DNA of 17,559 nt, taken from NCBI GenBank assembly GCA_937876695.1, contig CALFHW010000008.1, forward strand, positions 1 to 17,559. Direction: 5' to 3'. Of the stretch, positions 1 through 15,747 are shown piece by piece (positions within the stretch are counted from its first letter, which is position 1; every line of letters begins with the position of its first letter). The DNA is from an uncultured bacterium. Its GTDB lineage: Bacteria > Patescibacteriota > Dojkabacteria > CALFHW01. The position numbers were made by a program, and so were the translations under genes. The notes beneath the pieces were generated by a model. That model ran no database searches. It was not told where the DNA came from and saw only the letters and a program-made list of their open reading frames with translations.

Positions 1-357
1 ATCCAATGCAACGGTTACGCGCAAGCGGGAATTTTTACCCAGCCAGCGTGCCAAGTCATCTATGTTCACCTGATCGAGGCTGGTGTAGCGGGCCTCGGCT
101 GCCTTGAAACTCCCCTCAACTTTCAGACCTGGCTCGTCAAATGACTGCCCGCTCCAGAAAAGTAGCCTGACGCAGTTTTTCAAGACGCTGTAACCGGCCA
201 CTGGATTGCCTTCGATAAACCAGACAGGACTTCCGTGCCACTTTTTGTTCTCAGCTTGTGGCAGATTGCGGTCAATTTCAGCAGCCAAAAGCTCGCAGAT
301 CTCTTTATTGGCGGCGGTTTGCGCACTATTATATTCAATTATTTCTTGGTTGATCAT
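1..357 (-). CDS. DUF1801 (YdhG-like) domain protein, 3' end cut by window edge
   Basis: The reverse strand reads open from an ATG at 357 to the window edge, giving 119 residues without a stop; the C-terminus lies outside. The translated core (KKWHGSPVWFIEGNPVAGYS, then RLLFWSGQSFDE, then EGSFKAAEARYTS) matches the pattern I know for DUF1801 proteins, small soluble proteins related to YdhG. Their biochemical role is not established, so none is assigned. The start lies 5 nt after the stop of the upstream ATP-grasp gene. There is no clear Shine-Dalgarno sequence and no leaderless-type promoter like those of the neighbouring genes, so it is probably co-transcribed with the ATP-grasp gene. The family call is from memory of the motif pattern; the reading frame itself is clear. 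Confidence 0.72.
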   Translation of the reverse strand, partial: MINQEIIEYNSAQTAANKEICELLAAEIDRNLPQAENKKWHGSPVWFIEGNPVAGYSVLKNCVRLLFWSGQSFDEPGLKVEGSFKAAEARYTSLDQVNIDDLARWLGKNSRLRVTVALD

Positions 358-362
358 GTTCT

Positions 363-1472
363 CTATGAATTAATTAAAAACTGCTCGAAATCTGTGCTCA
401 GAAACTTATCTAACTTAGCTTTATCATCGGTCTTGAAGTAAGTAATTGCGAAAACTGGGTTAACTTTGTGATCCATTTCGATGTATTCTAGTAGTCCGTC
501 GCCCAAGTGCGCTTTAATCGCCTGATGATCGGGAGTCTGCTTGCCATCCTGGAAACTCTTAGGCTTGTAGAACAGGAACATCCCGCCGTAGTTGTCGCCA
601 AGTCTGTCTGTTAGCCGCTGCTGGCTGACGCCTTTGCCCTCGAAAAAATGCTCAAAAGGATTGATACCAAAGATATGATAAGCGATGTCGCCAAACCCAA
701 AGCCGCCGAATCTAGCCACATTAAATTCAATTGGAACCAATTTATCCTGCGCCAGCATAAACTCGGCGTGGATCGCCAAATTCTTAATCTGCAGGCCCTC
801 ATTGAACCTAGTAAATAGATTCATCAGCTCGGCATAATAAGTGTCGATAATTTGCTTACTGGTGTAGTGCAAAACGAAGAAATAGTCTTTATTTACAGGG
901 ATTGGGTGGTACTGGATATCAGTGATCACCGGCTGGCCCTCGCCGTCATAATACATATCTACCGCGAACTCCTCTTGGCCATCGATCAGCTCTTCAATAA
1001 TGACCTCATCCAACGTGATGACGCTATCTGAGAAGTTCTCTGCGCCGCTGCCAAGCTCGCTCGTCAGCTCTGACTGGATTCTTTTGAGCTGATCTTGTGC
1101 CATCAGCTTTTTCACGCCGGTGTTGAAAAACCCTTTTCTGGGTTTTACAATGTACTTCTTAGAAAAATCCAGCTCTACTTCACCCAATTTATCTAGTTTC
1201 ACCTTGGTAAAGAAGAAATCTGGGTAGAAACTGGCCAGAACCTGACGGCATTTGTACTTGTCTTTGATAGTGGTGATTTCGGACTTTCTTTTCTCGGAAT
1301 CAATTTGCGGCAGCACAAACTCCAAAGACGTCTCGTTGGGGATATATAGCTTGTCATCATACCCAAAACGCACGCCACTCCCCGCTAAGTCGGTGTCGCT
1401 GATTATCTGCACGTCTTTGAGCTGGGTAAATAGTGAGGAATTATAGTTCTGCCCGGTTATTATGTAGTTCAT
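363..1472 (-). CDS. ATP-grasp superfamily ligase, substrate unknown
   Basis: A 369-residue soluble protein with the layout of an ATP-grasp carboxylate-amine/thiol ligase, a fold that activates a carboxylate through an acyl-phosphate. Visible elements: an ATP-binding lysine in KKYIVKPRKGFF (K110), the hinge and adenine-binding strand VIIEELIDGQEEFAVD (about 157-172, acidic E160/E161), and the metal/phosphate motif IHAEFML followed by VPIEFNVARFGGFG (E237, E249, N251). The N-terminal 90 residues look like the usual pre-ATP-grasp domain. The substrate cannot be deduced; related families include carbamoyl-phosphate-synthase-like, PurK-like and peptide ligases. A dedicated promoter (TGGTATAAT, 5 nt, then ATG) supports the start at 1472, with the mRNA probably beginning at the ATG itself. 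The DUF1801 gene follows 5 nt after its stop. Confidence 0.85.
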   Translation of the reverse strand: MNYIITGQNYNSSLFTQLKDVQIISDTDLAGSGVRFGYDDKLYIPNETSLEFVLPQIDSEKRKSEITTIKDKYKCRQVLASFYPDFFFTKVKLDKLGEVELDFSKKYIVKPRKGFFNTGVKKLMAQDQLKRIQSELTSELGSGAENFSDSVITLDEVIIEELIDGQEEFAVDMYYDGEGQPVITDIQYHPIPVNKDYFFVLHYTSKQIIDTYYAELMNLFTRFNEGLQIKNLAIHAEFMLAQDKLVPIEFNVARFGGFGFGDIAYHIFGINPFEHFFEGKGVSQQRLTDRLGDNYGGMFLFYKPKSFQDGKQTPDHQAIKAHLGDGLLEYIEMDHKVNPVFAITYFKTDDKAKLDKFLSTDFEQFLINS

Positions 1473-1477
1473 AGCGA

Positions 1478-1486
1478 ATTATACCA
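1478..1486 (-). promoter_or_regulatory. Extended -10 promoter, leaderless, for ATP-grasp gene
   Basis: The minus strand reads TGGTATAAT, then 5 nt (TCGCT), then the ATG at 1472. A TGN extension plus a perfect -10 hexamer places the transcription start at the A of the ATG. It lies in the 24-nt gap after the GNAT gene. Confidence 0.7.
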
Positions 1487-1496
1487 GCTTTATATT

Positions 1497-2048
1497 TTAG
1501 GTAGCTGCACTGCCAAACTCCTCTGCCAACATCGAATAAACCGCCATATCCAGATACTCTCCCTCTGCTAGCTTATTACCAGCACGTTCTATACCTTCGA
1601 AATGGAAGTTCAATCTCTCGGCTAAGCCTCGACTGGGCTTATTCTCAACTGCGGCTTGTATTCCTATTCTCTTCAAGCCTAGATCCTTGAAGCCATAATT
1701 TAGAATTGCTTTAACAGAACTAGACATGATTCCCTTGCCTTGCATGTTACTTCTCAGCCAGTAGCCAATCGTGCTCTTGTTATGGCCTTTATCTATTTTG
1801 TGCAGATCCACCAAGCCGACTAACTCATTCTGGAAGTAGATCGCGAACGCACCGGATTTGTCATCTAGATGTCTGGCTTCGTTGTTGGTCAGGAAGTTTA
1901 ACATATGACTTGCTTCAGTTGTCTTGGGCACCCAGTTCAGGAACTTGCCCAAATAATCGCGGTCAGCCTCTACCAATGCAAATAACTCTTCCTCAATGCC
2001 GGGTTTAGCAATCTCTAGATAATGGTTTTCAGCAATTTCAATTCGCAT
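1497..2048 (-). CDS. GNAT-family N-acetyltransferase, RimJ/RimL-like
   Basis: A 183-residue acetyl-CoA-dependent N-acetyltransferase. The acetyl-CoA pyrophosphate loop is visible as NMQGKGIMSSS (about 101-111, Q-x-x-G-x-G/A type), preceded by the strand STIGYWL and followed by AILNYGFKDLGLKRI. The C-terminal segment AAVENKPSRGLAERLNFHFEG (about 132-152) is the signature seen in RimL/RimJ ribosomal-protein acetyltransferases and in SpeG-like or antibiotic-tailoring relatives. Length is typical. The acceptor substrate cannot be told from sequence; a ribosomal protein or small amine is possible. Its first 11 nt overlap the end of the upstream SGNH hydrolase gene (2038-2048), so the two are translationally coupled. 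There is no promoter or Shine-Dalgarno signal of its own. Confidence 0.88.
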   Translation of the reverse strand: MRIEIAENHYLEIAKPGIEEELFALVEADRDYLGKFLNWVPKTTEASHMLNFLTNNEARHLDDKSGAFAIYFQNELVGLVDLHKIDKGHNKSTIGYWLRSNMQGKGIMSSSVKAILNYGFKDLGLKRIGIQAAVENKPSRGLAERLNFHFEGIERAGNKLAEGEYLDMAVYSMLAEEFGSAAT

Positions 2049-2697
2049 TTGGATACTGACCCGTGATTAAACTCGCAAGCTCTTGAGCCACTTTAGTCTG
2101 TGCATCTGCATCCAAGTGGTAACCGTCGCCTTTGCTCGGCTGAACCAGTACAGAAAGATCGATAAATTTTGCCTGATGCTTCTCGGCAACCTTACTGTAA
2201 AGGCTGCCAAGCAATTTTGATTTAGCTTCCGCTCCTTTGTATCTTTCCTGTGTTGTCTCTACGCTTTCATCTACTAGCGGTGGTGACATGACAATCACCT
2301 CCGGCTGGAAACTTTGGTTCTCTTGGAATCTCTCCAGCGCCCTCTGTAGTAATTTATCCAAATTACTGGCGATCTGCTCTGCAGATAAATCATATTTTTC
2401 TTTTAGGTCATTGGTACCGAGACAAACTACCAAGAAATCAATTGGGATATGGCTCTCTATGCAAGGTAATAGGTAGTTAAGCCCATTTCTGTCGAGATTT
2501 TCTGGGTCTTCAATCATTGTGTTACGGCCGCCCAATCCCTCCTCAATAACCTCATAATCCTCCCCTAGGCTATTTTGTAACACACCTGTCCAGCGGACGT
2601 TTGCGGGGAACCTTAGCCTCTCCGGGCCTGGAACGCGTCCATAGGTGTTGGAATCGCCAAAACATAGAATTCTTTTTGCGTTTGGGTTAGTGTTCAT
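2038..2697 (-). CDS. SGNH/GDSL-family hydrolase (esterase/arylesterase-like)
   Basis: A 219-residue serine hydrolase of the SGNH superfamily. All four blocks are present: the nucleophile Ser16 in CFGDSNTYG (GDSN rather than GDSL, common in the arylesterase branch), oxyanion-hole Gly54 in EEGLGGRNT, Asn96 in VVCLGTNDLK, and the Asp-x-x-His pair in GDGYHLD (D191, H194). There is no signal peptide, so it is expected in the cytoplasm; likely substrates are small acyl or aryl esters or deacetylation targets. The start at 2697 is supported by TGCTATAAT placed 5 nt upstream of the ATG. The GNAT gene overlaps its 3' end by 11 nt, forming a two-gene unit. Pairing of an acetyltransferase with an esterase suggests, without proving, acetylation and deacetylation of a common type of substrate. 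Confidence 0.9.
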   Translation of the reverse strand: MNTNPNAKRILCFGDSNTYGRVPGPERLRFPANVRWTGVLQNSLGEDYEVIEEGLGGRNTMIEDPENLDRNGLNYLLPCIESHIPIDFLVVCLGTNDLKEKYDLSAEQIASNLDKLLQRALERFQENQSFQPEVIVMSPPLVDESVETTQERYKGAEAKSKLLGSLYSKVAEKHQAKFIDLSVLVQPSKGDGYHLDADAQTKVAQELASLITGQYPNAN

Positions 2698-2702
2698 AGA
2701 AA

Positions 2703-2711
2703 ATTATAGCA
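2703..2711 (-). promoter_or_regulatory. Extended -10 promoter, leaderless, for SGNH hydrolase gene
   Basis: TGCTATAAT on the minus strand, 5 nt (TTTCT), then the ATG at 2697. Same spacing as at 1478, 3284, 3777 and 4682, predicting initiation at the start codon. Confidence 0.75.
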
Positions 2712-2747
2712 TTTGATCTCAGTAGACTTCTGTGCTCATTTATGACT

Positions 2748-3278
2748 TTACCTGCCAGCCATATATACACCCAGCGCGCTTAGAAATCCCATGTCTTTGA
2801 TCTGCCCATCTGCGACCATGGCTTTAATTTCCTCCAAAGTTTTGAGCTCGAAGCTAATGGCTTCGTCATCTCCCAATTCCTGAGCCGTGGTCTCTGTTTC
2901 GTCGAATCTCAAGATCACTATATAAGCCTTCATCGAGCAGAAACTAGGCTGAGGATACAATTCATGAACTTCATCGCCCTTCCCGCTGTATCCTGTCTCC
3001 TCTTTGAGCTCCCTGAGGGCAGCCTGCAATGGACTCTCACCCTTGTCAATCCAACCCGCTGGCAACTCATAGACCATGTCATCAACTCCTCTACGGTACT
3101 GCTTCTCTATGACGATTCTATTTTTATCACTAATAGCCAAGATCAACACATAATCTGGTCTACTCATATGGTAGTAGCCCTCTCGCACCTCGCCATTGGG
3201 TAGCTCATAGGTGTTATCGTGTAATGCGATAAATGGCGATTCGAAAATTGGTTTAGAGGATTTTAATTTCCACTTCAT
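2748..3278 (-). CDS. Nudix hydrolase, ADP-ribose pyrophosphatase-like
   Basis: A 176-residue Nudix hydrolase with a complete Nudix box from G75 to Y97 (GWIDKGE, then SPLQAAL, then RELKEETGY), with metal-binding glutamates E93/E94 and helix glutamate E90. The upstream segment (FESPFIALHDNTYELPNGE, then VLILAISDKNRIVIEKQYRRGV, then YELPAG) follows the pattern of the ADP-ribose/NDP-sugar pyrophosphatase branch (NudF/YjhB type), which splits nucleoside diphosphate-X to NMP plus phospho-X. Exact substrate is uncertain. The start is fixed by TGCTATAAT-5 nt-ATG. This promoter lies inside the last codons and stop of the preceding Nudix gene, so the two are adjacent but can be initiated independently. 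Confidence 0.9.
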   Translation of the reverse strand: MKWKLKSSKPIFESPFIALHDNTYELPNGEVREGYYHMSRPDYVLILAISDKNRIVIEKQYRRGVDDMVYELPAGWIDKGESPLQAALRELKEETGYSGKGDEVHELYPQPSFCSMKAYIVILRFDETETTAQELGDDEAISFELKTLEEIKAMVADGQIKDMGFLSALGVYMAGR

Positions 3279-3279
3279 A

Positions 3280-3771
3280 CTAGATTATAGCAGGCTGCAA
3301 ATAGCCCAGTCTGGTAAATAGCTCTATACTGGGGGGAGTTAATCGAGCTCCAGATAATTCGCTGATATCAAACCACCTGAGCTCTACCAACTCATCCGTG
3401 GGCGCTAGTGTCATCTGGTCGGCAGTTTTAGTTAGTTTTACTGAATAGACATTGAAATTCATGTGGCACCATACTTTCTCGCCAGTGTCTTTTAGGGTCT
3501 TTTCTGTGGCACCCCTGCCTAGATCGTCGATTAACTCAATTTCAGCATCAGCGATATCAATATTCGTCTCCTCCAAAACTTCCCTTTGCAATGTCGTTAG
3601 ATTGTCTTCACCGTCATCAACCCCACCACCTGGGATATGCCAGGCATCGGCGTAAACACCGCCTTGTGCAGGGTCTTTCTTGCCCATCAGGAGTTTGCCG
3701 TCGCTGGAAAGAATCACGCCCGACACTATCTCCCGTGTTATCTCTCTTAGGTTACGGGGATTTTGCTTCAT
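3280..3771 (-). CDS. Nudix hydrolase (MutT-like)
   Basis: A 163-residue Nudix protein. After a short N-terminal segment, strand SGVILSSDGKLLMGKKD leads to AWHIPGGGVDDGE and QREVLEETNI, which is the Nudix box at about 49-71. Catalytic R63/E64 and metal ligands E67/E68 are intact, but the usual Gly near the end of the box is Asn70. This is the MutT/8-oxo-dGTPase-like or general NTP-sanitising type; the substrate is unknown. An upstream in-frame TTG (3789) and ATG (3786) exist, but ATG 3771 is preferred because TGCTAAAAT sits exactly 5 nt upstream, as at neighbouring leaderless genes. The last codons hold the promoter of the next Nudix gene. A strong palindrome lies just upstream of the expected -35 region and may regulate it. 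Confidence 0.85.
   Translation of the reverse strand: MKQNPRNLREITREIVSGVILSSDGKLLMGKKDPAQGGVYADAWHIPGGGVDDGEDNLTTLQREVLEETNIDIADAEIELIDDLGRGATEKTLKDTGEKVWCHMNFNVYSVKLTKTADQMTLAPTDELVELRWFDISELSGARLTPPSIELFTRLGYLQPAII
3284..3292 (-). promoter_or_regulatory. Extended -10 promoter, leaderless, embedded in the upstream gene's 3' end
   Basis: TGCTATAAT, 5 nt (CTAGT), then the ATG at 3278. The element overlaps the codons for the last residues (Ala-Ile-Ile) and lies just before the stop of the Nudix gene ending at 3280, so one stretch is both coding and promoter. Confidence 0.75.
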
Positions 3772-3776
3772 GTCAG

Positions 3777-3785
3777 ATTTTAGCA
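3777..3785 (-). promoter_or_regulatory. Extended -10 promoter, leaderless, deciding the Nudix start at 3771
   Basis: TGCTAAAAT, 5 nt (CTGAC), then ATG at 3771. Its spacing equals that of the other minus-strand genes and argues against the longer reading frames starting at 3786 or 3789, which would begin inside or upstream of the -10 element. Confidence 0.65.
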
Positions 3786-3805
3786 TCAAAGTGATTTAAT
3801 TTCAG

Positions 3806-3826
3806 CTGTCGACAAATTGTCGACAG
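3806..3826 (-). promoter_or_regulatory. Perfect 10-bp inverted repeat, candidate operator
   Basis: Arms CTGTCGACAA and TTGTCGACAG flank a single central A, a 21-bp perfect palindrome with two SalI-like GTCGAC cores. It lies about 35-55 bp upstream of the inferred transcription start of the Nudix gene at 3771, next to the expected -35 position, and 40 nt past the stop of the triosephosphate isomerase homologue. No T-run follows on either strand, so an intrinsic terminator is unlikely; a dimeric regulator's binding site fits better. The cognate protein is not identified. Confidence 0.55.
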
Positions 3827-3866
3827 TTCAACTCCTTCGTCAGACTTACTTCCCCTGCCCAGTTTT

Positions 3867-4676
3867 CTATCGATTAATTAATGTAGAAAACTTATAGATA
3901 TCGGTTAAAGGCGGCGAGACTACGATCTGGAAGGTGCTGTCCAGATTCCTCATGGCCTCGACAAACTGCTCGTCGCTATCTGCCCTATTAAACGCCTTCA
4001 TATTCACATGCATGATCTTAAGCTTATCTGGCGCGCCTGTCTTCATAGCACGGGCAATATCCTTAAATTTTGCTACTGTGTTTGTCGCTGAACCGAGGAT
4101 TAACCCATCCACTGAGTCTAGTTTAATTAGGCTCTCTGCCCTTTCAGGTGTCGTCATCCCTCCAAAAATATACTTAATACTGCCGGCGACCTCCAGACCA
4201 TACTTCTCAGATAGAAATTTGTTAATGGCCTTATTGCAGGTATCAACAAGTTCCACAGAAGCTGGCTCTGCTCCAGACTGTCCGCTGCCTCTAGTGCCCC
4301 ATTTAGGTTCGTAACCCACAAATATTCCTTGAACTAAACTGCCGTCCACTCCGGAAAAGATCATTTCCGCTCTGTTCACCACATTTTTGGCAACCTCAGA
4401 GTGCGGCAACTGATAGTATTCTTCCCAAGTTTCTCCAATCAGAATTGTGGAATGCTTTAGACAATCAGGCCCTAACAGCTTTCGTCTGCTCTGTAGCGTC
4501 AGCAGCTTCTGATTGATCGTCTCCGAGCTATCGCCGACCTCTGAATGGCCGAAAATCACGCCTTGCGCACCGGCATTATGCAGGAGTTCAATGCTCACAG
4601 ACCCAGTTCGGGCGAACAAGTCTTGGCCATCGTTTTCGAAAATGTTGAAATTGGGCGCCGAAAGGATAATTTGCAT
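3867..4676 (-). CDS. Triosephosphate isomerase homologue with circularly permuted order
   Basis: Residues 1-212 align with triosephosphate isomerase (dihydroxyacetone phosphate to glyceraldehyde 3-phosphate) from strand 3 to the C-terminus: TGSVSIELLHNAGAQGVIFG with GHSE (H44, E46, equivalent to catalytic His95 and Glu97), ILIGET, GYEPKWGTRGSG (E123, the catalytic base and loop 6), KYIFGGMTTPERAESL, and VDGLILGSATN. The usual N-terminal strand 1-helix 1-strand 2, carrying the catalytic lysine, is absent there. A matching segment is at the C-terminus instead: KIMHVNMKAFN (K227 aligning with Lys12 of GNWKMN), then EQFVEAMRNLD and QIVVSPPLTDIY, which mirrors the canonical VxVVxAPPFTYL. All catalytic residues are thus present in permuted order, as expected for a TIM barrel whose ends meet. 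269 residues, slightly longer than the usual 250. The start is supported by TGCTATAAT-5 nt-ATG, and only 85 bp separate it from the divergent gene, leaving no room for a normal N-terminus. Activity is inferred. Confidence 0.8.
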   Translation of the reverse strand: MQIILSAPNFNIFENDGQDLFARTGSVSIELLHNAGAQGVIFGHSEVGDSSETINQKLLTLQSRRKLLGPDCLKHSTILIGETWEEYYQLPHSEVAKNVVNRAEMIFSGVDGSLVQGIFVGYEPKWGTRGSGQSGAEPASVELVDTCNKAINKFLSEKYGLEVAGSIKYIFGGMTTPERAESLIKLDSVDGLILGSATNTVAKFKDIARAMKTGAPDKLKIMHVNMKAFNRADSDEQFVEAMRNLDSTFQIVVSPPLTDIYKFSTLINR

Positions 4677-4681
4677 AGGAA

Positions 4682-4690
4682 ATTATAGCA
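4682..4690 (-). promoter_or_regulatory. Extended -10 promoter, leaderless, for the permuted TPI gene
   Basis: TGCTATAAT, 5 nt (TTCCT), then ATG at 4676. The position 17 bp further upstream holds no recognisable -35 hexamer, consistent with an extended -10 promoter. It faces the divergent promoter at 4744. Confidence 0.75.
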
Positions 4691-4743
4691 CCGAATCTAG
4701 CCAATAGATTAGCCTGCCCTAACCTGATTTAATCCCGAATTGG

Positions 4744-4752
4744 TGCTAGAAT
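4744..4752 (+). promoter_or_regulatory. Extended -10 promoter for EEP hydrolase gene
   Basis: TGCTAGAAT followed after 9 nt by the ATG at 4762, so the predicted leader is only about 3-4 nt. Divergent from the promoter at 4682. Confidence 0.6.
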
Positions 4753-4761
4753 TCGTAGTAT

Positions 4762-5559
4762 ATGAGACTAAGAGTAGTTTTCGCAAACATTTATCAAGGA
4801 CTACATTTCGCTGGCGAAAAGGACGGCGAGGATGTGTTTTTCGGATTTAAACCTCAGCTTTATGGTGAACTTTTCAAGAACTTAAACCCAGATATTTTAT
4901 GCCTGGCAGAGATGCCTTTTGATACTGAAGATGGGCAGGGTCAGTTTATCACAATGTTGCAGGACGAATTGGGCTTTGCTAGCCATGAAAGCTATGTCAG
5001 CAATAAATCCTGGATTGTCGAAGGTAAATTTTACGGGAGTGCGATTTTTAGTAAACACAAAATTGTCGATTACGCCGTAACCACATTACCGAATCCAAAG
5101 CTTGAAGTGATCAGGTCAGACGGGTCGCATTGGGTAATGCATGACAAAGCCCTACAAAAAGCGGTGATTTCAATCGGCCAGAAAAGACTTAACGTCTTCA
5201 ACTTACATTACTTTCCATTTCATCATTTCGGCAGGTCATTGATGGAACCTGAATTTGCAGTGATTCGTCAACAACTAGCCGATTTAGTCAACCCGTCTAA
5301 GGGCGAAATATCCCTGGTGACGGGCGATTTCAACAATAAAGCAGTTAAGCTGGATGCGGCTTTCCCGGAATTGCTGGCAACCGGGATTTTTACCGAAGCC
5401 ATTGAGTATAATCGCCTCGAAAAAGAAAAATACTACCAAGGAGATGGCATCCAGGTCGACCACATATTATTTAGTTCAGGATTGAAGCGAATACTTGCTG
5501 AGGTTGAAGACAATTACTCCGACCACCCTACCCTAATTGCAGATTTTGAAGTTGAATAA
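4762..5559 (+). CDS. Endonuclease/exonuclease/phosphatase (EEP) superfamily hydrolase
   Basis: A 265-residue DNase I/ExoIII-like metal-dependent phosphodiesterase. The full catalytic set is visible: N9 in VVFANIYQG, metal-binding E50 in ILCLAEMPF, H149 in VFNLHYFPF, D189/N191 in VTGDFNN, and the D-H pairs in VDHILFSS (D233/H234) and YSDHPTLIADF (D254/H255). Members cut DNA, RNA, phosphoinositides or nucleotide phosphoesters; the target here is not evident. No signal peptide or membrane segment is seen, so it is probably cytoplasmic. The winged-helix/Nudix gene begins 4 nt after its stop, indicating a two-gene operon. The start is supported by the upstream promoter and by the normal beginning of the fold. 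Confidence 0.88.
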   Translation: MRLRVVFANIYQGLHFAGEKDGEDVFFGFKPQLYGELFKNLNPDILCLAEMPFDTEDGQGQFITMLQDELGFASHESYVSNKSWIVEGKFYGSAIFSKHKIVDYAVTTLPNPKLEVIRSDGSHWVMHDKALQKAVISIGQKRLNVFNLHYFPFHHFGRSLMEPEFAVIRQQLADLVNPSKGEISLVTGDFNNKAVKLDAAFPELLATGIFTEAIEYNRLEKEKYYQGDGIQVDHILFSSGLKRILAEVEDNYSDHPTLIADFEVE

Positions 5560-5563
5560 GCCA

Positions 5564-6268
5564 ATGCTTTCATACGTTCAAAACCTAATCCTTACCAAAT
5601 TTCTAAAGGCTGAAAAGCTAAAATATTCTGAATGCATTCCCGAAGGGCTGGATAAGGATTTGTTTAACTATCATTTCAAGTTCCTAAAGGAAAAATCATA
5701 CATCCTTAAGGATGAAGAATGTTACTCTTTGACCCATTTAGGCAAAAAATACGTTCAAAGACTAGACGCACTCGGAGTTTATAAGGACTACTTCCGTGTT
5801 TCTGTGTTAGTTTACTTAGTGATAGCAGATGCCGGCCAACAGAGAATCCTCTTACACAGAAGACTGAGACATCCATACTACGGCGACATTGGAGTGATTT
5901 CAGGAAAAGTACAGTATGGCGAAAAAATTGCGGCTGCTGCCCAGAGGAAGTTTAAAGAGGAGACTGGACTCAATATAGACCCGCCACGCCTGATTGGTGT
6001 GCATCGTAAAACCAGACATGACAAGGATGGTGAAATAATTGAAGACACGCTTTACCACTGTTGTCTGGCTTCGAGTTATAAAGGCGAGCTTAAAACAAAA
6101 ACAGAGTTTGGCGAAAACTTTTGGGCAAGTTTAGACGATGCGAAGAACTATGAGTCTCAAAATATCGCCGGTAGTAAAGGTGGGATTGCAGTACTAGAGA
6201 AAATCAAAAGTAACGATTTGAGCGAACTTTTCTACCTTGAAGAGGAACAAACTTTGACTCAGTACTAA
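5564..6268 (+). CDS. Winged-helix plus Nudix domain protein
   Basis: A 234-residue two-domain protein. Residues about 1-70 (KYSECIPEGLDKDLFNYHFK, then EECYSLTHLGKKYVQRL) look like a winged helix-turn-helix, with a typical wing SLTxxGKxYV. Residues about 78-200 are a Nudix domain: VLVYLVIADAGQQRILLHRR, then a Nudix box from G114 to L136. In the box the glutamate after the conserved Arg is lysine (R128-K129-F-K-E132-E133), while the metal-binding EE pair remains. Either a nucleotide-sensing transcription regulator or a hydrolase with an accessory domain is possible. The domain order is reversed relative to NrtR (Nudix then winged helix). Start: an in-frame TTG at 5537 lies inside the EEP gene; ATG 5564, 4 nt after that gene's stop, is preferred. 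No Shine-Dalgarno sequence is clear. Confidence 0.83.
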   Translation: MLSYVQNLILTKFLKAEKLKYSECIPEGLDKDLFNYHFKFLKEKSYILKDEECYSLTHLGKKYVQRLDALGVYKDYFRVSVLVYLVIADAGQQRILLHRRLRHPYYGDIGVISGKVQYGEKIAAAAQRKFKEETGLNIDPPRLIGVHRKTRHDKDGEIIEDTLYHCCLASSYKGELKTKTEFGENFWASLDDAKNYESQNIAGSKGGIAVLEKIKSNDLSELFYLEEEQTLTQY

Positions 6269-6274
6269 ACTCCT

Positions 6275-7234
6275 CTACAATATTACCTCAGTTGGTAACC
6301 AACGTCGATTCTCCTCCACTCTACTGATGGTATCAGTATGCTGCTCAATAATATTGATTAAACTTTCGGAAGTAAGTGATATAAGAGGTTCGGTTATAGA
6401 CTGATGCTTTCCATCTTGTACTAATGCCAATTCCCCTGTAGGCAAAACCAGGAAATAAGCATTTTCAGCCACACTATGAGGACGTCCAACCACATTAATG
6501 TCAGTGAACCTTGATCCAATCTGTGCGGCTATATTATTAAACGTAGCCTCTCCAATCTCATAGATGTGTCTATTGTCATAACCTTCTTCCACAGGTGAAA
6601 ATTGGAATAACCGCCATATTACTAAGTTAAATGGCGTTTCTGCCCACCATTTCTGTATTTCAGCGCCAATGTCTGCTATACCATTTTCATTCACAGACGA
6701 CACCACGGTACCTATCTTAACTGCTTTCTCTGGCATTTCAATAGATATTTGTCTGATAAGCTCGCGGTTTGCTTCATAATGGCGTTCTACTCGACCCATT
6801 TGGACGTTCGATTCGGTGTTAGCCCCGTCAAATGAGAGTCCGAATACATCAACTAAACCGTATAGTGTCTGCCTTAGCTCAGTATCTAGGGAAAGAATTA
6901 GTGCATTGGTGGAGATGTAAACAAGCGCTGGTTCTTCCTTAGACTTGATATGCTTTAAGATTTCTACCAAGTCCCTCCGCAAAGTTGGCTCGCCACCACC
7001 TATGTTAAATGATCTGACACCAATTGTATAAAGCGAATCAATTATGGTTTTCCACTGTTCAGTAGACATCTCTAGTCTATGATTTTGATAGATAGGCACC
7101 CCATTCTCGCTAGCATTTGGCTTTCTGGCACCATAACAAAAGGGACAGGCTTCATTGCATTTACCCGTAAGCATCAAATCTACTGTTAAGTTGCGATTAC
7201 CTACCATTAGGAGTGGATTATATGCCATGAGCAC
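6275..7234 (-). CDS. Radical SAM enzyme, viperin/MoaA-like
   Basis: A 319-residue radical SAM protein. The 4Fe-4S cluster cysteines are C26, C30 and C33 in GKCNEACPFCYGA; the SAM-binding GGGEPTL follows at 79-85 and a strand-4 type motif YISTNA at 106-111. Several later segments resemble viperin as I remember it: LSFDGANTESNVQMGR (human viperin has a CDSFDEEVNVLIGR-type segment), VKIGTVVSSVN (FKINSVINRFN), IWRLFQF (RWKVFQCL) and EIGEATF (VIGDEEF). Viperins make ddh-nucleotides from NTPs in antiviral defence; MoaA-type or peptide-modifying enzymes are the alternatives. No SPASM cysteines occur near the C-terminus. No nucleotide kinase, a frequent prokaryotic viperin neighbour, is adjacent. Start: GTG 7234 or ATG 7228; a TAGAAA hexamer 6 nt upstream slightly favours the GTG. 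It ends 6 nt from the convergent Nudix gene. Confidence 0.78.
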   Translation of the reverse strand: MLMAYNPLLMVGNRNLTVDLMLTGKCNEACPFCYGARKPNASENGVPIYQNHRLEMSTEQWKTIIDSLYTIGVRSFNIGGGEPTLRRDLVEILKHIKSKEEPALVYISTNALILSLDTELRQTLYGLVDVFGLSFDGANTESNVQMGRVERHYEANRELIRQISIEMPEKAVKIGTVVSSVNENGIADIGAEIQKWWAETPFNLVIWRLFQFSPVEEGYDNRHIYEIGEATFNNIAAQIGSRFTDINVVGRPHSVAENAYFLVLPTGELALVQDGKHQSITEPLISLTSESLINIIEQHTDTISRVEENRRWLPTEVIL

Positions 7235-7318
7235 ACATGATTTCTAGTGAGTATGTACTAACCTACTAAAAAACATTATGAAATACAGCAAACTCGAAGA
7301 ACTCGCAATTGGAGTTAC

Positions 7319-7340
7319 GGTGAGCTATCGTAGCTCAACC
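7319..7340 (-). repeat. Hairpin spanning the stop of the RBBP9-like gene
   Basis: Inverted repeat TGAGCTA–TCG–TAGCTCA, extended by GGT/ACC with one bulged A. The minus-strand stop codon (TGA, 7335-7337) lies in one arm. There is no U-tract after it on either strand, so it is not a classical terminator; it could be an mRNA 3'-end stabiliser or processing site. Confidence 0.45.
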
Positions 7341-7910
7341 CAAAATCTCTCCTAGCAATTCAGGGAATTCCACTGTCTTCATATCGGATAAACAGAAATG
7401 GCCATAATTGTGAAACTCTTTGTATTGGACGCCTTTAACTTCTGTTCTTATTATCTCTACTGACTTATGGATCGATTCCTCATCGTTATTTGAGTGGAAT
7501 ATTGTAACTCCTGCAGTCCGGCTCCCCAGTTCCGGATCAATTTTAAACTCAAAAAAATCTGCAGTGTCAGAACGCGGATTGTTTTCAGGGTTGAGCCAGG
7601 GTGCAACCAAAATAACTTTATTTACTTCCCTTTCTTTGTTCTCACTTAACCAACGCACCAGGAAGCCAGCGCCACAGCTATGACCGACCAATATTGTCTC
7701 TGATATTATGTCAAACCTCTCGAATTCCTTTTTCCACAGGTCATATCTCGGTTGCCAGGGGGTAGGCATTTCAATGGCGACGGCAAAAATATCATTTATT
7801 TGAAGCTGTTTCGAAAGCCAAGGAAACCAATGGTTATTACTATTGGTAGGGAATTCTGGGTTGTAGTACTCATCCTTATCGGGTCTTCCAGGAACTAAGA
7901 TTGCATTCAT
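7335..7910 (-). CDS. Alpha/beta hydrolase, RBBP9/YdeN family
   Basis: A 191-residue small serine hydrolase. It starts with the family's first strand (NAILVPGRP), and has the nucleophile Ser78 in TILVGHSCGAGFLVRW, acidic D143 in FHSNNDEESI, and His171 in YGHFCL, preceded by the typical VILVAPW strand. This is the RBBP9/YdeN layout without the lid domain of larger lipases. Substrate unknown; family members act on small esters or amides. It starts 29 nt downstream of the tRNA-Ile gene on the same strand, with no convincing promoter between, so it may be transcribed through from the tRNA. Its stop codon sits within a hairpin at 7319-7340. Confidence 0.87.
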   Translation of the reverse strand: MNAILVPGRPDKDEYYNPEFPTNSNNHWFPWLSKQLQINDIFAVAIEMPTPWQPRYDLWKKEFERFDIISETILVGHSCGAGFLVRWLSENKEREVNKVILVAPWLNPENNPRSDTADFFEFKIDPELGSRTAGVTIFHSNNDEESIHKSVEIIRTEVKGVQYKEFHNYGHFCLSDMKTVEFPELLGEILG

Positions 7911-7939
7911 CTCGCTATTTGCTTGAGCCAGTTTATATA

Positions 7940-8013
7940 TGGGCCAGGATGGACTCGAACCATCGACCCCGGCTTTATAAGAACCGTGCTCTAACCACCT
8001 GAGCTACTGGCCC
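7940..8013 (-). tRNA. tRNA-Ile(UAU)
   Basis: A complete cloverleaf can be drawn by hand on the minus strand: acceptor GGGCCAG paired perfectly with CTGGCCC, D-arm GCTC/GAGC, anticodon stem CGGTT/AGCCG (one G-U pair) around loop CTTATAA giving anticodon UAU, a 5-nt variable loop, and T-arm GATGG/CCATC with loop TTCGAGT. Discriminator base is A; the CCA end is not encoded. UAU reads AUA (Ile) directly, whereas most bacteria use a CAU tRNA modified to lysidine by TilS. The overall sequence resembles other tRNA-Ile genes, which supports isoleucine identity. Confidence 0.9.
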
Positions 8014-8055
8014 GTTAACAGGCTCAGAACGTAAGTTAGGCACCAAATGTCCGCC

Positions 8056-8073
8056 AATCTGCACGCGCAGATT
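8056..8073. repeat. Inverted repeat upstream of tRNA-Ile
   Basis: AATCTGC–ACGC–GCAGATT, a perfect 7-bp stem with a 4-nt loop, inside the 237-nt gap between the tRNA and the next gene. No T-run follows. Function unknown; possibly a regulatory or processing hairpin in the tRNA transcript. The rest of the gap (8014-8250) shows no long reading frame and no recognisable repeat. Confidence 0.4.
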
Positions 8074-8239
8074 CCGCCATGGAGTCACTGGTTGATTTTA
8101 CACTATATTGACCGGTTGTAGATAGGGTGTGTAATTTAGCAGGCAACTGCAGAACTCATGCTTGTTATTAAACCCTTTTTCCTAAATTTCCAGAAAATGG
8201 CGATGTAATTTATACATAGCATTTCATAAGCATCTGAGA

Positions 8240-8245
8240 TATAAT
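8240..8245 (+). promoter_or_regulatory. TATAAT promoter, leaderless, for the 422-aa gene
   Basis: A perfect TATAAT lies exactly 5 nt before ATG 8251 (2 nt before the alternative ATG 8248). It lacks the TGN extension found at other promoters here, and no clear -35 hexamer is seen. The spacing argues for the start at 8251. Confidence 0.6.
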
Positions 8246-8250
8246 AAATG

Positions 8251-9519
8251 ATGCTTGAGAAATTAGGCTACTGGCCAAAAGAACTGCATACAGGGGCGTT
8301 TATCATCGGGGAGGAGTATGCGTTATCGCCGTATTTCCATGAAATGACTGAACATTTGCTTCCTCATGAAAAAGCATCAATATTGCAAATGTTAAGGACA
8401 CAAGCTCACGCCTCAACTCAAATGCACACAAACTTCGGTATCCTGCCTTGTAAGAATCCCGATTCTATGCCAATGGTAAATGGATTAATACCAAGCCGGG
8501 AGGAATTACTAAGCCCAGCTGGGATGATAACACATACAACTGGTAGACTTTACTATCTTTCCGACTCTAGCGGATCTGAGATCAACTTAAGACCGCCGAG
8601 TGAATATTATCCTAGTGATCTGCCGGTATCTATTGGTGCAAAATGCACTGGATCCAATAGAATCGTTCAAAATGGCAACACACCTCTATCGGTACATTTC
8701 GAAGATGGGATTATGCTCGAAGGGCTTGGAAGTATTTCACCCGAAGATTTCTGGGTGCCAATTGCTTTAAATAATTACAGGATGGAAACGGGGTTTCAAT
8801 GTGTCGATACTGATGGGGAACGGCTAGATTGGAAGCTTATACCAGGTAGGCTACCTATTATTTCATTCCCAATCGAAGGGCTAGTGACCCCCCATACAAT
8901 ACTGGAACTCAAAAATTTTAACCCCCTTATACCGCTAGGTTCGGGTGAAAATCAATTGCACGTGACATTCTATCTAAATCCGCTTCCCATAACATTTTCT
9001 GATTTGGGACACGCAATTAACCTCCAAGGCAGTATTGATTCCAAACGTCAACATGTGATTGGATCCGGTGCAAAAATACTGACGGTACTCAGTAAACTAG
9101 ACCAATTCAAGCATGTCGAGACAAACAGCAGATATAATAGCGAGTTAACAGCACTATGGAACCCAATTCTTTCACATTGGTTACGCAGAAGCTATCTTGA
9201 TTGCCAGCTTATTTGTAACCTAATGCAGCCGAAATACCGGCACTTACAAAATACCACTCCCATCGGCATGACAGATTTCGAGAAGTGGATTTGGAGCCTT
9301 GTGCGGGACGAAGGGAGATATAGGGTTTCTCTGGCACACCACTTTAATGCGGAGGCTCTCGATATTATTTATTTTCTGAAAACTTTCGGAAAAATCTGTG
9401 ACAAAAGCGAAAAACGCTCGATCTTTCTTTCACTCAAAGATAAATATCCTACGGGACTTGCATTTGGCAGCGTTGAGAGATGGCAAAAGAATTTAGCTAG
9501 CGCTTTAGCTCTAGATTAG
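8251..9519 (+). CDS. Unrecognised protein, 422 residues
   Basis: I do not recognise this family. The protein is soluble by eye: no signal peptide, transmembrane helix or low-complexity tract. The first half is rich in turns and aromatic/proline residues (YYPSDLPVSIGAKC, VHFEDGIMLEGLGS, DFWVPIALNNYRM), suggesting a beta-rich domain. The C-terminal 130 residues look helical and basic (HWLRRSYLDCQLICNLMQ, FEKWIWSLVRDEGRYRVSLA), possibly an alpha-helical domain. It may be restricted to its lineage. It stands alone between the tRNA-Ile gene and the convergent ATPase gene, 2 nt from the latter's stop. ATG 8251 is preferred over 8248 from the 5-nt promoter spacing. The position beside a tRNA could mean acquisition by integration, but no integrase or att repeat is visible. 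Confidence 0.75.
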   Translation: MLEKLGYWPKELHTGAFIIGEEYALSPYFHEMTEHLLPHEKASILQMLRTQAHASTQMHTNFGILPCKNPDSMPMVNGLIPSREELLSPAGMITHTTGRLYYLSDSSGSEINLRPPSEYYPSDLPVSIGAKCTGSNRIVQNGNTPLSVHFEDGIMLEGLGSISPEDFWVPIALNNYRMETGFQCVDTDGERLDWKLIPGRLPIISFPIEGLVTPHTILELKNFNPLIPLGSGENQLHVTFYLNPLPITFSDLGHAINLQGSIDSKRQHVIGSGAKILTVLSKLDQFKHVETNSRYNSELTALWNPILSHWLRRSYLDCQLICNLMQPKYRHLQNTTPIGMTDFEKWIWSLVRDEGRYRVSLAHHFNAEALDIIYFLKTFGKICDKSEKRSIFLSLKDKYPTGLAFGSVERWQKNLASALALD

Positions 9520-9521
9520 TG

Positions 9522-12131
9522 TTAGATGGTCCCCCCAGCTGGGCTCATGCCGGGGAAGGCAGGTGGGGCCCCGAAGTCTGGCATACCGCCGACCGCTGTG
9601 CTGCCAGCTGATCCTGCGTCTCCTGCTGCCCCGTCGGGCTTTGTCTCCGCTGCCTTCAAGGGCGTCTGGAAGCCGCCCATGCCGCCAGCTGGCTTAGCGT
9701 CGTCCTCTCCGCCCAGGTTCATCTCCGACCGACGGGTGATCTCGGCCTCAACCATGCCGCGATCGCGGCCATAGCGCAGTCTAGAGAGTTCGCGCACCAT
9801 CTCTCCTACTTTATCGTACTTAGGGAACTTCTCGGGGTCATAAGGCACTTTGGCGGAGAATGGCGATGGATACTCGCCATCGACCAGCATTTTCATATAG
9901 ATATTGTAGTTCTCTAAGTTGATCAGGTCGTTCTGGTCAAAAACTGGGTGGAACTCATTTTGCAAATAACTGGCATCATTGACGCCCACCTTGAAACTGA
10001 CCATGCTACCCACATTACCGAAGACAGCATCTCTGACTTTTTCATCGATCTGGGCGATGTACTGGTTGGCAACAATTAGATTTAGCCTATACTTTCGAGC
10101 CTCAGACAAAATCTGGGCAAAGTCATCAGTAGCGAAGTTCTGGAACTCGTCCACGTACAAGAAGAAGTCTTTACGTTCGGCTTCAGGGATATCCGCCCTA
10201 CTCATCGCCGCGTTTAGAATCTTAGGCACCATAAGTAGACCAAGAAATTGCGAATTCTCTTCTCCAATTAATCCTTTTGATAAATTAATCAGCAGAATCT
10301 TGCGGTTATCCATCACTTCTCTGACGTCAAAGCCCGATTTAGACTGGGCAATGATGTTACGCATCAGCTTATTGGTCACGAATTTCTCGAACTTTGAAGT
10401 GATGTGTCCCAAAATCTCGGACTTATGGAAGTCCTGCGTATTGGCGACCTGCTCTGTCCAATACCTCTTCACCACGTCATCCTTAAGGTAAGGGAAAAAG
10501 CGCTTTGCGAATTTATCATCAGTAATGATACGCACCACCTCCACTAGCGAAGTACCGGGAACCGACATAGCCGTAAGCATGGCGTTACGCACCGACTGTT
10601 GGAAACGCGGGCCAGTGATACCTTGGTTGTGCGGGTCAAACATCTTGTTCATCAAGCCCAGGAAGGACTCTACTATTCTGTATTTCTCGTTCTCACTGGT
10701 GTATTCCATGATATTAAAGCCAATAGGGCGATCGGTATCAGCCGGGTTGAAATAGATGACGTCCTCTGCCCTCTCTGGTGGAATTCGGTCCAGAATATGC
10801 TCCGCAGCGTCCCCGTGAGGGTCTAAGAAAGCTAGGCCATGGCCGTTGTAGATGTCTTGCAGGATCATGCGCTGGATGAAAGTTGTTTTTCCAGAACCTG
10901 TCTTACCTACGGTGTAAAGATGCCTACGGCGGTCATTGAGCTTGAGGTAGATCTTTTTGACGGTGTCGCGGTAGGTGGAGGTTGCCACGTGCACTGCGCC
11001 TTCGGTGTAGTTGGCGGTGACTTCAGGGCCGGCGGGCGCGCGCTTAGATAATAGCCAGTTGATGTGCGGCGTGCGCACCGATTGGTTTGGGAAGTGGAAG
11101 ATGGTAGACAGCTCGGCAGTATTGAGAATGGTAGTTTCCTTAGGGATGCGGTAGACGAAATCTTTGACGAATTCTTTGCCAACCGATTGCTTTTTGAATT
11201 CATTGGAGCCCTCTAGGCGAAATTGATCTAGCGAGCTGACCATGGCAGTTAGATTTGCATCGGCCTGGTCTTTTTCCTTGGCCACCGAAACTATTCTAAT
11301 ATCAGTAAAAAAGCCCGTCTTCTCGGTCTTCTTCTCGATATGGCCTAGCACTTCATCATCCACATTGATTTTCTTTTTTTCTGGGTCGGAGTTATTGTCA
11401 CGCACCTTGCTGACGAATTTCTTGCCGGTATTGCGCCAATCAGATCCCGCAGGGGTGATAATCAACTGATACGCCAGTGCCTCGCCTTTGGCAAGTTTAC
11501 TCATTGAGCCGGTGACAACTGACATCGAGTCTGTATTTAGCTCCTCGTAGGTTTTAATTGGTTTGTAACTGTCATCTGCCAGACCCAATGAGGCAAACGA
11601 TACCTTTGAGCCTTCTGGGAAGATGTTGTAGTCCTTAGTAGGAGTAACCTCGGCATCTGGATAGGCTGCATTGATTTGTTTTTCAACTAGCGAGGCAATT
11701 TTCTTGGGTGCCACCACGTAGAAGCGGATATTCTCTGGGAAGGCCACGATTTCAAAGCTGACAAAGTTGCGGGCTGCAAAGAATGCTTTGAATTTGCCCA
11801 TTTTACCAGCAATCCCACTTAAACCTGTGTATAGTTGATCCGCTGCTGAAATCTCGGTCTCATTTGATTGCGGCAATCTAACTTGGAATACCACCGTCTC
11901 CAGTGATAATCTTTCCCAAGAGGTGGTTTTGATCTTCCTAGCTAGCCATTTGATAAAGAAAAATAGCGACGCAATCATAAGCAGCAAAGCTATCAAAGAC
12001 ACCACTACCGAAATAACTTCGAAAGATATGTTATCTGCCGCTGTATTTGTTCCGGCTGTTGTTGCGGCACCTGCTACACGTTCAAAAGTCTCTCTACGTG
12101 CGGCTTGGGCCAAAAAGTATAGTTGTTCCAC
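9522..12131 (-). CDS. Membrane-anchored VirD4/TraG-like ATPase
   Basis: An 869-residue HerA/VirD4-type P-loop ATPase. An N-terminal transmembrane helix (about 37-61, SVVVSLIALLLMIASLFFFI core) precedes a largely beta/alpha cytoplasmic domain of about 330 residues, then the motor: Walker A VGKTGSGKTT (408-417), LAFLDPHGD, GFNIMEY, Walker B FFLYVDEFQN (656-665), and the glutamine-bearing motif LIVANQY (685-691). The last 80 residues are Gly/Ala/Pro-rich. Such proteins couple ATP hydrolysis to DNA or protein movement across a membrane (type IV coupling proteins). No relaxase, VirB channel or pilin genes are in the window, so secretion or DNA uptake cannot be separated. Start is GTG 12131, with TGCTAGAAT 6 nt upstream. 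It is the last gene of the operon from 15654. Confidence 0.85.
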   Translation of the reverse strand: MEQLYFLAQAARRETFERVAGAATTAGTNTAADNISFEVISVVVSLIALLLMIASLFFFIKWLARKIKTTSWERLSLETVVFQVRLPQSNETEISAADQLYTGLSGIAGKMGKFKAFFAARNFVSFEIVAFPENIRFYVVAPKKIASLVEKQINAAYPDAEVTPTKDYNIFPEGSKVSFASLGLADDSYKPIKTYEELNTDSMSVVTGSMSKLAKGEALAYQLIITPAGSDWRNTGKKFVSKVRDNNSDPEKKKINVDDEVLGHIEKKTEKTGFFTDIRIVSVAKEKDQADANLTAMVSSLDQFRLEGSNEFKKQSVGKEFVKDFVYRIPKETTILNTAELSTIFHFPNQSVRTPHINWLLSKRAPAGPEVTANYTEGAVHVATSTYRDTVKKIYLKLNDRRRHLYTVGKTGSGKTTFIQRMILQDIYNGHGLAFLDPHGDAAEHILDRIPPERAEDVIYFNPADTDRPIGFNIMEYTSENEKYRIVESFLGLMNKMFDPHNQGITGPRFQQSVRNAMLTAMSVPGTSLVEVVRIITDDKFAKRFFPYLKDDVVKRYWTEQVANTQDFHKSEILGHITSKFEKFVTNKLMRNIIAQSKSGFDVREVMDNRKILLINLSKGLIGEENSQFLGLLMVPKILNAAMSRADIPEAERKDFFLYVDEFQNFATDDFAQILSEARKYRLNLIVANQYIAQIDEKVRDAVFGNVGSMVSFKVGVNDASYLQNEFHPVFDQNDLINLENYNIYMKMLVDGEYPSPFSAKVPYDPEKFPKYDKVGEMVRELSRLRYGRDRGMVEAEITRRSEMNLGGEDDAKPAGGMGGFQTPLKAAETKPDGAAGDAGSAGSTAVGGMPDFGAPPAFPGMSPAGGTI

Positions 12132-12137
12132 AACTTT

Positions 12138-12146
12138 ATTCTAGCA
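12138..12146 (-). promoter_or_regulatory. Extended -10 promoter upstream of the VirD4-like gene
   Basis: TGCTAGAAT, 6 nt (AAAGTT), then GTG 12131. It lies in the 26-nt gap after the Pro/Gln-rich gene, so the ATPase can be transcribed on its own as well as from upstream. Confidence 0.55.
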
Positions 12147-12157
12147 TGCTGGAAACC

Positions 12158-12670
12158 TTAGAGTGAGTGTTTCTTTAGGAGTCTGTCTATCATGGTTACC
12201 AGCCAGGTATCACTGTCGTGTTCACTACCTTTGCCTTGCTTGCTGCGAACGTGCTCAAAGTCACTGGCCCACTTGGGTGCTTTGTAACCGAAGAATGAAG
12301 GCCCGACTGGCGCAAGCTCCGGGATATTAGGTGCTTGGGCGGCTGGTTGCGCAGGTTGTGCAGGCTGTTGGCCGTTCCCAGCTGGTTGCGCACCCGGTGC
12401 AACTGGCAGCCCGCCAGACTGCTGGCTGGGCGTGGTGGTTGGCTGTTGGATTCCCCCCTCTGGTTGAGCAACAATACCCGATTTCTGATTGGAATATACA
12501 GGCAATGACTCTCTTACCGGCTCTGGGACCGCCGGTTGCCCAACTGGTACTGCTTGCCCAGCCGCTGCCGGCTCACTGCCCTGCTGCACTGCAGCGCCAC
12601 CTTGCACCGCCCCAATATCCTGTGATGGAGAGGCTGGAGCCAGCGGTGATTGATTGAGATTGTCTGCCAT
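12158..12670 (-). CDS. Pro/Gln/Ala-rich disordered protein with short C-terminal domain
   Basis: A 170-residue protein whose first about 118 residues are low-complexity (repeated QPA, PAQ and GGI-type segments) and surely disordered. The last about 50 residues (FFGYKAPKWASDFEHV, then DTWLVTMIDRLLKKHSL) look like a compact amphipathic helical tail and are the only part likely to fold or bind. No signal peptide or membrane segment. It lies between smpB (19 nt upstream) and the VirD4-like ATPase (26 nt downstream), so a role as linker or adaptor for the ATPase is possible but unproven. An AAGGAT sequence 2 nt before the ATG supports this start. Family not recognised. Confidence 0.7.
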   Translation of the reverse strand: MADNLNQSPLAPASPSQDIGAVQGGAAVQQGSEPAAAGQAVPVGQPAVPEPVRESLPVYSNQKSGIVAQPEGGIQQPTTTPSQQSGGLPVAPGAQPAGNGQQPAQPAQPAAQAPNIPELAPVGPSFFGYKAPKWASDFEHVRSKQGKGSEHDSDTWLVTMIDRLLKKHSL

Positions 12671-12672
12671 AT

Positions 12673-12678
12673 ATCCTT
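12673..12678 (-). promoter_or_regulatory. Shine-Dalgarno sequence for the Pro/Gln-rich gene
   Basis: AAGGAT on the minus strand, 2 nt before the ATG at 12670. It is the clearest Shine-Dalgarno-like signal in the window and contrasts with the leaderless starts of promoter-proximal genes. Confidence 0.5.
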
Positions 12679-12689
12679 AATATTAGCAA

Positions 12690-13142
12690 TTAAAAGTACT
12701 TACTGGAAATTTCAGCTTTTAATTCTTTTTGCTGATCCCTCGCTAGTACCCGTTTGCGTTTATCGTACTCTTTTTTACCCTTACCTAGAGCTATTTCTAC
12801 CTTGATCAGACCTCTTTCCAATCCCATAATAGTTGGTACCAATGTTAGTCCTTTGGTCTTTAACTTAGTAGAGATTTTCTTTAGCTCCTGCTTATTGAGT
12901 AGTAGCTTAATCTCGCTGGGCGCGTGCTTGCGGTCATATTCGCTCATGCCTTGCCAGAAAGAGATTTGGGCACCTTTTAGAAAGCACTCTCCTCTATTCA
13001 AATAGGCAAAGGCCTCGTTTAGACTAGCGTTGCCTGCTTTGATTGACTTGACTTGCCAACCCTTGAGCACCATTCCAGCCTCAAACCTATCTAGAAGTTC
13101 ATAGTTAAAACTAGCTTTTCTATTTTTGCTAATAATTTTCAT
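12690..13142 (-). CDS. smpB: SsrA-binding protein SmpB
   Basis: A 150-residue SmpB, partner of tmRNA in trans-translation, which frees ribosomes stalled on broken mRNAs and tags the nascent chain for decay. The family pattern is complete: NRKASFNYELLDRFEAGMVL, then GWQVKSIKAG, ECFLKGAQISFW, HAPSEIKLLLNKQELKKI, TKGLTLVPTIMGLERGLIKV, and the basic C-terminal tail with GKGKKEYDKRKRVLARDQQK, which enters the mRNA channel. Length is normal. The start lies 4 nt after the stop of the pseudo-PP2C gene and a weak AGGT precedes it, so it is co-transcribed. The tmRNA gene is not in this window. Its position in a membrane/ATPase operon is unusual. Confidence 0.96.
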   Translation of the reverse strand: MKIISKNRKASFNYELLDRFEAGMVLKGWQVKSIKAGNASLNEAFAYLNRGECFLKGAQISFWQGMSEYDRKHAPSEIKLLLNKQELKKISTKLKTKGLTLVPTIMGLERGLIKVEIALGKGKKEYDKRKRVLARDQQKELKAEISSKYF

Positions 13143-13146
13143 CTAC

Positions 13147-15654: not shown

Positions 15655-15707
15655 GATCTATAACATAATAGCTTATTGACGGCCAGACAGAAAGCACTTG
15701 CATTTGT

Positions 15708-15716: not shown

Positions 15717-15747
15717 CAACTGTATTAAACTATTACTATTTGCTAGT

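Follow-up and report, generated by a model that had tools for sequence, protein, structure and literature searches.

A naturally circularly permuted member of the triosephosphate isomerase family from an uncultured Dojkabacteria bacterium

Triosephosphate isomerase (TIM or TPI) is the namesake of a very common enzyme fold and the usual example of an enzyme that has evolved to a high degree. The question raised by the locus described here is whether nature itself has cut and rejoined this barrel at another place, and what the resulting protein might do. The locus lies in a stretch of 17,559 nucleotides (contig CALFHW010000008.1 of the GenBank assembly GCA_937876695.1, positions 1 to 17,559), referred to below as the window, from an uncultured bacterium of the Dojkabacteria (Patescibacteriota). 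The protein concerned is designated cpTIM, for circularly permuted TIM, and its gene is divided as follows:

3867..4676, minus strand: cpTIM gene, 269 amino acids, ATG start, stop codon at 3867-3869
4038..4676, minus strand: residues 1-213, corresponding to TIM strands 3 to 8 and helix 8, now N-terminal
3870..4037, minus strand: residues 214-269, a linker followed by TIM strand 1, helix 1, strand 2 and helix 2, now C-terminal (Pfam profile positions 3-51; hhalign of 140 tails; model strands E220-225 and E249-254)

Strand order and its conservation

The only Pfam family matched by cpTIM is TIM (PF00121), in two stretches with 79.8 bits, above the cut-off of 20.1, the better stretch covering residues 22-210 on profile positions 69-244. 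The C-terminal 49 residues taken alone align with profile positions 3-51, at 15.8 bits (E 0.01) and under that cut-off; when moved ahead of the remaining sequence, they give one single match, of residues 2-259 on profile positions 3-244, with 91.5 bits. A single cut-and-rejoin thus yields a full-length collinear TIM match, which is the mark of a circular permutant, the canonical strand order from 1 to 8 being replaced by 3-8-1-2. Each of the 269 possible rotations was also scored against our own canonical profile, built from 54 open reading frames (ORFs) with the expected motifs from 69 loci (L010-L078, some of them cpTIM loci). The best cuts fell at residues 213-217 with 99.7 bits, compared with 81.1 bits for the native order, and 500 shuffled tails reached a maximum of 91.2 bits versus 99.4 for the real one. 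The AlphaFold model is confident (pTM 0.93) and contains eight strands; sequential aligners superpose residues 1 to about 217 on the part of canonical TIM that begins with strand 3, covering only those residues, and the nearest solved structures, among the matches listed, are TIMs.

Protein searches revealed 115 relatives at first and later 175 at E 1e-30 or better. The family alignment comprises 140 of 144 proteins, the window protein included, after leaving out P0089, P0114 and P0115 (truncated or fused) and P0137 (242 residues); an earlier alignment held 112 of 115 matches, without the first three. The permuted order is common to all 140 members, so that cpTIM is no lone oddity but stands for a family with 140 distinct members or more. 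Re-permuting raises the score in 139 of them, the mean going from 87.6 to 102.8 bits and the smallest change being 0.0. The profile of the 140 tails, compared with the canonical profile by hhalign, matches over positions 2-54 with a probability of 94% and an E of 1.4e-7.

A first-pass annotation made from the sequence alone had read the gene as a natural TIM permutant split between helix 2 and strand 3. Profiles, rotations, the family as a whole and the structure model agree with it, and the description of the 269-residue protein as a natural circular permutant of the TIM family holds; homologues with the same order, an issue the annotation had raised, are plentiful. Concerning the match of the C-terminal part to the TIM N-terminus in a profile search, the claim is firm for the profile of 140 tails but weak for the single sequence.

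It should be mentioned that two of the proteins set aside are unusual in themselves. P0115, from a contig of 756 bases, is a 157-residue protein with the cpTIM start joined to a stretch annotated as PF13023, and P0089 is a 351-residue protein in which cpTIM runs into unrelated sequence; both look like products of truncation, fusion or frameshift.

Catalytic residues and a paired substitution

The residues of cpTIM were mapped on TIM with the accepted TIM roles and numbering:

4545..4547, minus strand: H44, the catalytic His95, invariant in 140/140
4542..4544, minus strand: S45, Ser96, with Ser in 130 of the 140 members and Pro in the other 10
4539..4541, minus strand: E46, Glu97, invariant in 140/140
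4308..4310, minus strand: E123, the catalytic base Glu165, with Glu in 130 of the 140 members and Asp in the other 10
4281..4304, minus strand: loop 6, residues 125-132, KWGTRGSG, one residue longer than the canonical VWAIGTG
4002..4004, minus strand: N225, Asn11, invariant in 140/140
3996..3998, minus strand: K227, the catalytic Lys13 (Lys12 in other numbering), invariant in 140/140

The complete catalytic signature of TPI (Asn11, Lys13, His95, Glu97 and Glu165) is found in cpTIM as N225, K227, H44, E46 and E123; the alignments confirm the contexts that had been claimed for H44, E46, E123 and K227, and N225 joins them. T24 (Thr75) and the two glycines of loop 7 are likewise invariant in the 140 members. 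The loops are less conservative. As judged from an alignment of 11 permuted and 8 canonical proteins, loop 3 is about five residues longer and contains an invariant RTG, and loop 4 is about four residues shorter and lacks Arg98, which is replaced in 140/140. Loop 6 is of the xWGxRGSG type, with Arg at the position of R129 in 124 of the 140. At the Ser211 position, Arg is found in 106 members, Met in 5 (the window protein among them), Lys in 3 and Thr in 1, Ser being kept in 25, and Gly233 is Ser in every member. In place of the canonical phosphate-loop motifs PxWAIGTG (loop 6), YGGS (loop 7) and GG (loop 8), the window protein has PKWGTRGSG, FGGM and LGS. Because loops 3, 4, 6, 7 and 8 have diverged, TPI activity is here presumed. 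Barrel closure, oligomeric state and substrate are likewise inferred. As regards the oligomer, a TPI dimer or tetramer has loop 3 in the active site of the adjoining subunit; in cpTIM the Thr75 equivalent of this loop is kept, but the loop is longer.

In the mechanism proposed, a short linker behind helix 8 would have connected the old TIM termini, and the chain would have been opened anew between helix 2 and strand 3, on the barrel face remote from the active site. A closed (beta/alpha)8 barrel would then re-form with the strands in the chain order 3-4-5-6-7-8-1-2, reassembling the catalytic set of N225/K227 (Asn11/Lys13), H44/S45/E46 (His95/Ser96/Glu97) and E123 (Glu165). E123 would shuttle a proton between the C1 and C2 atoms of the substrate, a small aldose or ketose phosphate, H44 and K227 stabilising the enediolate.

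The ten members with Asp at position 123 are exactly the ten with Pro at position 45, with no exception in the 140. One D/P cpTIM and its nearest E/S sister, P0128 and P0070, share 78% identity. At least four changes are needed to place this D/P pair on quick trees, both with and without the two trait columns (the latter tree also lacking 29 of the 140 members, those of a distant clade together with three long-branched ones), and the grouping of all ten D/P members together is rejected (p-AU 3e-5). Among canonical-order ORFs picked by profile alone (55 distinct, after setting aside L020, in which the Lys13 column is empty, and 25 permuted ORFs), Ser96 is present in 55/55 and Glu165 in 52, being unaligned in 3. 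We regard the coupling as evidence of its own for the way the residues were mapped, and as a sign that the geometry of proton transfer is under selection; gene-segment transfer between lineages could alternatively have spread the pair.

Distribution, origin and probable role

The names attached to the relatives, among the matches listed (best 120 of 175), are those of Patescibacteria (Beckwith-, Roizman-, Peregrini- and Saccharibacteria, Paceibacterota), of DPANN archaea (Woese- and Aenigmarchaeota) or of a plain archaeon. A scan of one genome per species, covering 84,980 species with three peptide patterns from the alignment, found nine carriers of cpTIM (L001-L009); the remaining 23 loci consisted of 21 canonical-order TIM ORFs, L020, and L032, left unclassified. 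A scan of genome contigs with the single sequence matched a pattern 19 times, none of them in a relative. In partly overlapping whole-genome samples, with no completeness given for the genomes, full-order matches amounted to 1/379, 2/156, 1/245, 2/239 and 1/371, all of them in carriers already known. None of the 82 stretches of viral contigs with a pattern match encodes a relative. Among plasmids, 45 records had a match, the best 5 of 45 being annotated tpiA and aligning to the query from residue 2 to 203-220, so that none of the five reaches further than the beginning of the moved tail. The family is therefore sparse and patchy in Patescibacteria and DPANN archaea.

The origin was approached with a tree containing 34 of 142 permuted proteins (named ones, or those with less than 60% identity to others). 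All 34 occupy one side of a branch with support of 100/97, adjoining the canonical TIMs of bacterial type, with three archaeal-type TIMs positioned far away. The topology argues for a single origin of the permutation, in a lineage sister to the bacterial-type TIMs. Archaeal and bacterial carriers are interleaved in the tree, which suggests transfer between the domains.

With regard to the role, a second TIM of canonical order is present in seven of the nine carrier genomes, four of these partners being of bacterial type (L033-L036) and three grouping as archaeal type (L037, L038 and L048, the last with only a partial Pfam match). Two of the archaeal-type TIMs, L038 and L048 (1501 onward, minus strand), come from bacteria of the candidate phyla radiation (CPR), a member of the Peregrinibacteria (G003) and one of the Beckwithbacteria (G001), respectively; on NF003302, the model of the archaeal-type subfamily, L038, the one scored, reaches 251 bits. 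Both PGK and GAPDH were detected in eight of the nine carriers. In G007, which has both, cpTIM is the sole TIM detected; in G006, whose completeness is not given, cpTIM occurs with no PGK, GAPDH or other TIM detected; and in G002 the canonical TIM and GAPDH lie on the same contig about 1.5 kb apart. Because of the canonical partners and of G006, a glycolytic role is not required of cpTIM, which need not be the glycolytic TPI of its carrier.

Of the equivalog models for TPI, only TIGR00419 discriminates, since the cut-offs of the others, save the archaeal subfamily model for L038, are missed by the canonical partners too. Its cut-off of 130.6 bits is passed by the three canonical partners that were scored, L033, L034 and L038 (the three values, in rising order, being 156.7, 173.9 and 180.4 bits), and missed by cpTIM, with 44 bits in the native order and 51.4 after re-permuting. 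No gene neighbourhood was found to be consistently conserved among 20 neighbours in the nine carriers and 10 in the window (for L005, upstream genes only, the contig ending after cpTIM). Taken together, the sequence features make it very probable that cpTIM is an isomerase of the TIM type. Activity on glyceraldehyde 3-phosphate and dihydroxyacetone phosphate (GAP/DHAP) is likely; as the actual substrate, this pair has about an even chance, another small phosphorylated sugar not quite so much, and a protein devoid of isomerase activity would be improbable.

Other explanations have to be weighed against these data. That an ordinary TPI only appears permuted, as the result of a wrong start call, a frameshift or a rearrangement made in assembly, is extremely improbable: nothing was found in its favour, the order shared by all 140 members refutes it, and the copy L001 sits in a record titled complete genome. 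Moreover, because an in-frame TAA is found three codons 5' of the ATG, the start of cpTIM is fixed and no normal N-terminus is hidden upstream, where the gap to the divergent neighbour amounts to 85 bp (4677-4761), too small for one, as had been argued from the beginning; in 120 of the 140 aligned members, just 2-4 residues precede the column of residue 3. The patchy distribution, the second copy and the altered phosphate loops could also be understood if cpTIM were a barrel without catalysis, retaining TIM residues by descent and acting as a ligand binder or regulator. Such a protein would need neither the invariance of N225, K227, H44 and E46 in 140/140 nor the constant pairing of E or D at the catalytic base with S or P, and this explanation is decidedly unlikely.

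A closer competitor is a specialised paralogue acting on a different small phosphorylated sugar, glycolysis being left to the cell's canonical TIM. It is known that TIM homologues of tetritol catabolism isomerise a different small phosphorylated sugar. This paralogue would fit the co-occurrence of the two TIMs, the canonical copy near GAPDH in G002, the state of G006, the longer loops 3 and 6, the changed phosphate-loop residues and the failure at TIGR00419 even after re-permuting. It agrees less well with G007, with a D/P pair that parallels a coupling known from measurements of GAP isomerisation, and with the lack of any conserved neighbourhood pointing to another pathway; it can be regarded as possible, although somewhat doubtful. 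As for a natural circularly permuted isomerase of the TIM family, with reassembled catalytic residues, a single origin, a patchy occurrence and usually the place of a second TIM, several points weigh against it: the weak single-sequence match of the tail (15.8 bits), the second TIM in most carriers, G006, the missed equivalog cut-off, the altered phosphate-contact positions (Ser211 being Met in the window, Gly233 being Ser, Arg98 replaced) and a sign test of the E/S-D/P coupling that gave p 0.125, on four independent pairs, a number that cannot reach significance, from quick trees. This description is nevertheless considered highly probable. The fuller picture of an ancient permutant of single origin, serving as a second, specialised isomerase in some Patescibacteria and DPANN archaea and having swapped Glu165 to Asp with Ser96 to Pro at least four times, is offered tentatively.

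Gene surroundings and comparison with known systems

Two elements resembling an extended -10 consensus can be read in the sequence of the gap, by resemblance only:

4682..4690, minus strand: TGCTATAAT, ending 5 bases ahead of the cpTIM ATG
4744-4752, plus strand: TGCTAGAAT, 9 bases before the start codon of the divergent gene

No obvious ribosome-binding site lies between TGCTATAAT and the ATG, and the closeness of the elements to the start codons suggests leaderless mRNAs for both cpTIM and its divergent neighbour. The two divergent promoters that the first-pass annotation had placed in the gap are upheld to the extent that these elements are readable before both starts, but a strict -35/-10 scan of 3700-4900 found 3 sites where 1.9 are expected, and no terminator. 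The neighbours of cpTIM in the window include three NUDIX hydrolases, GNAT, a GDSL hydrolase, ATP-grasp, radical SAM and a protein of the endonuclease/phosphatase family. The three NUDIX genes surround cpTIM within 3.5 kb (2748-3789, minus strand, and 5537-6268, plus strand), and on the minus strand two of them are followed, in the same direction, by the GDSL hydrolase, GNAT and ATP-grasp genes. A 423-residue protein at 8248-9519 (plus strand) has no Pfam match at E 1e-4.

Among the papers listed in searches of the open-licence literature, there was no earlier description of a naturally permuted TPI, nor any report of a natural E165D/S96P pair. In sources that give them a name, proteins of the cpTIM family are called 'triosephosphate isomerase', 'triose-phosphate isomerase' or hypothetical, the permutation being unmentioned, and for that reason the wrong enzyme may be counted when the metabolism of Patescibacteria and DPANN archaea is reconstructed; TIM is counted in CPR genomes in PMC7143001 and PMC8406219. 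A natural TIM family cut elsewhere offers a ready experiment on whether the native termini are needed for folding order, oligomerisation and catalysis.

Compared with bacterial-type TPI (PF00121), cpTIM shares the fold, the catalytic Asn/Lys, His, Glu97 and Glu165, the Trp of loop 6 and the GG of loop 7, and differs in the strands, 3-8 coming before 1-2, in the altered lengths of loops 3, 4 and 6, in Ser211 being mostly Arg and in Gly233 being Ser. The archaeal-type TIM (NF003302, PRK04302) belongs to the same family, and three of the carriers have it as the canonical-order partner of cpTIM (L037, L038 and L048); unlike cpTIM, it has the canonical order, and it is distant in the tree. Designed permuted TIM barrels such as sTIM11 (PMC13105402) are likewise circular permutations of a barrel of the (beta/alpha)8 type, although not of TPI; general remarks on designed barrels are found in PMC13105402 and PMC8250049.

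The closest parallel to the paired substitution comes from cTIM. According to the review PMC12874384, E165D lowers kcat/Km 420-fold and S96P alone causes a 27-fold loss, and adding S96P to E165D regains 1.8 of the 3.6 kcal/mol lost. The natural D/P pairs provide a natural test of this classic result on compensatory mutation, and, if the present reading is true, nature took the compensated route found in the laboratory (Asp plus Pro) at least four times; kinetics of natural E/S and D/P cpTIMs would tell whether it outdid the laboratory pair. The laboratory pseudorevertant E165D/S96P of cTIM, as given in PMC12874384, carries the same paired substitutions as 10 of the 140 cpTIMs, whereas in cpTIM the pair is natural, stands on a permuted backbone and occurs, on quick trees, in at least four separate places.
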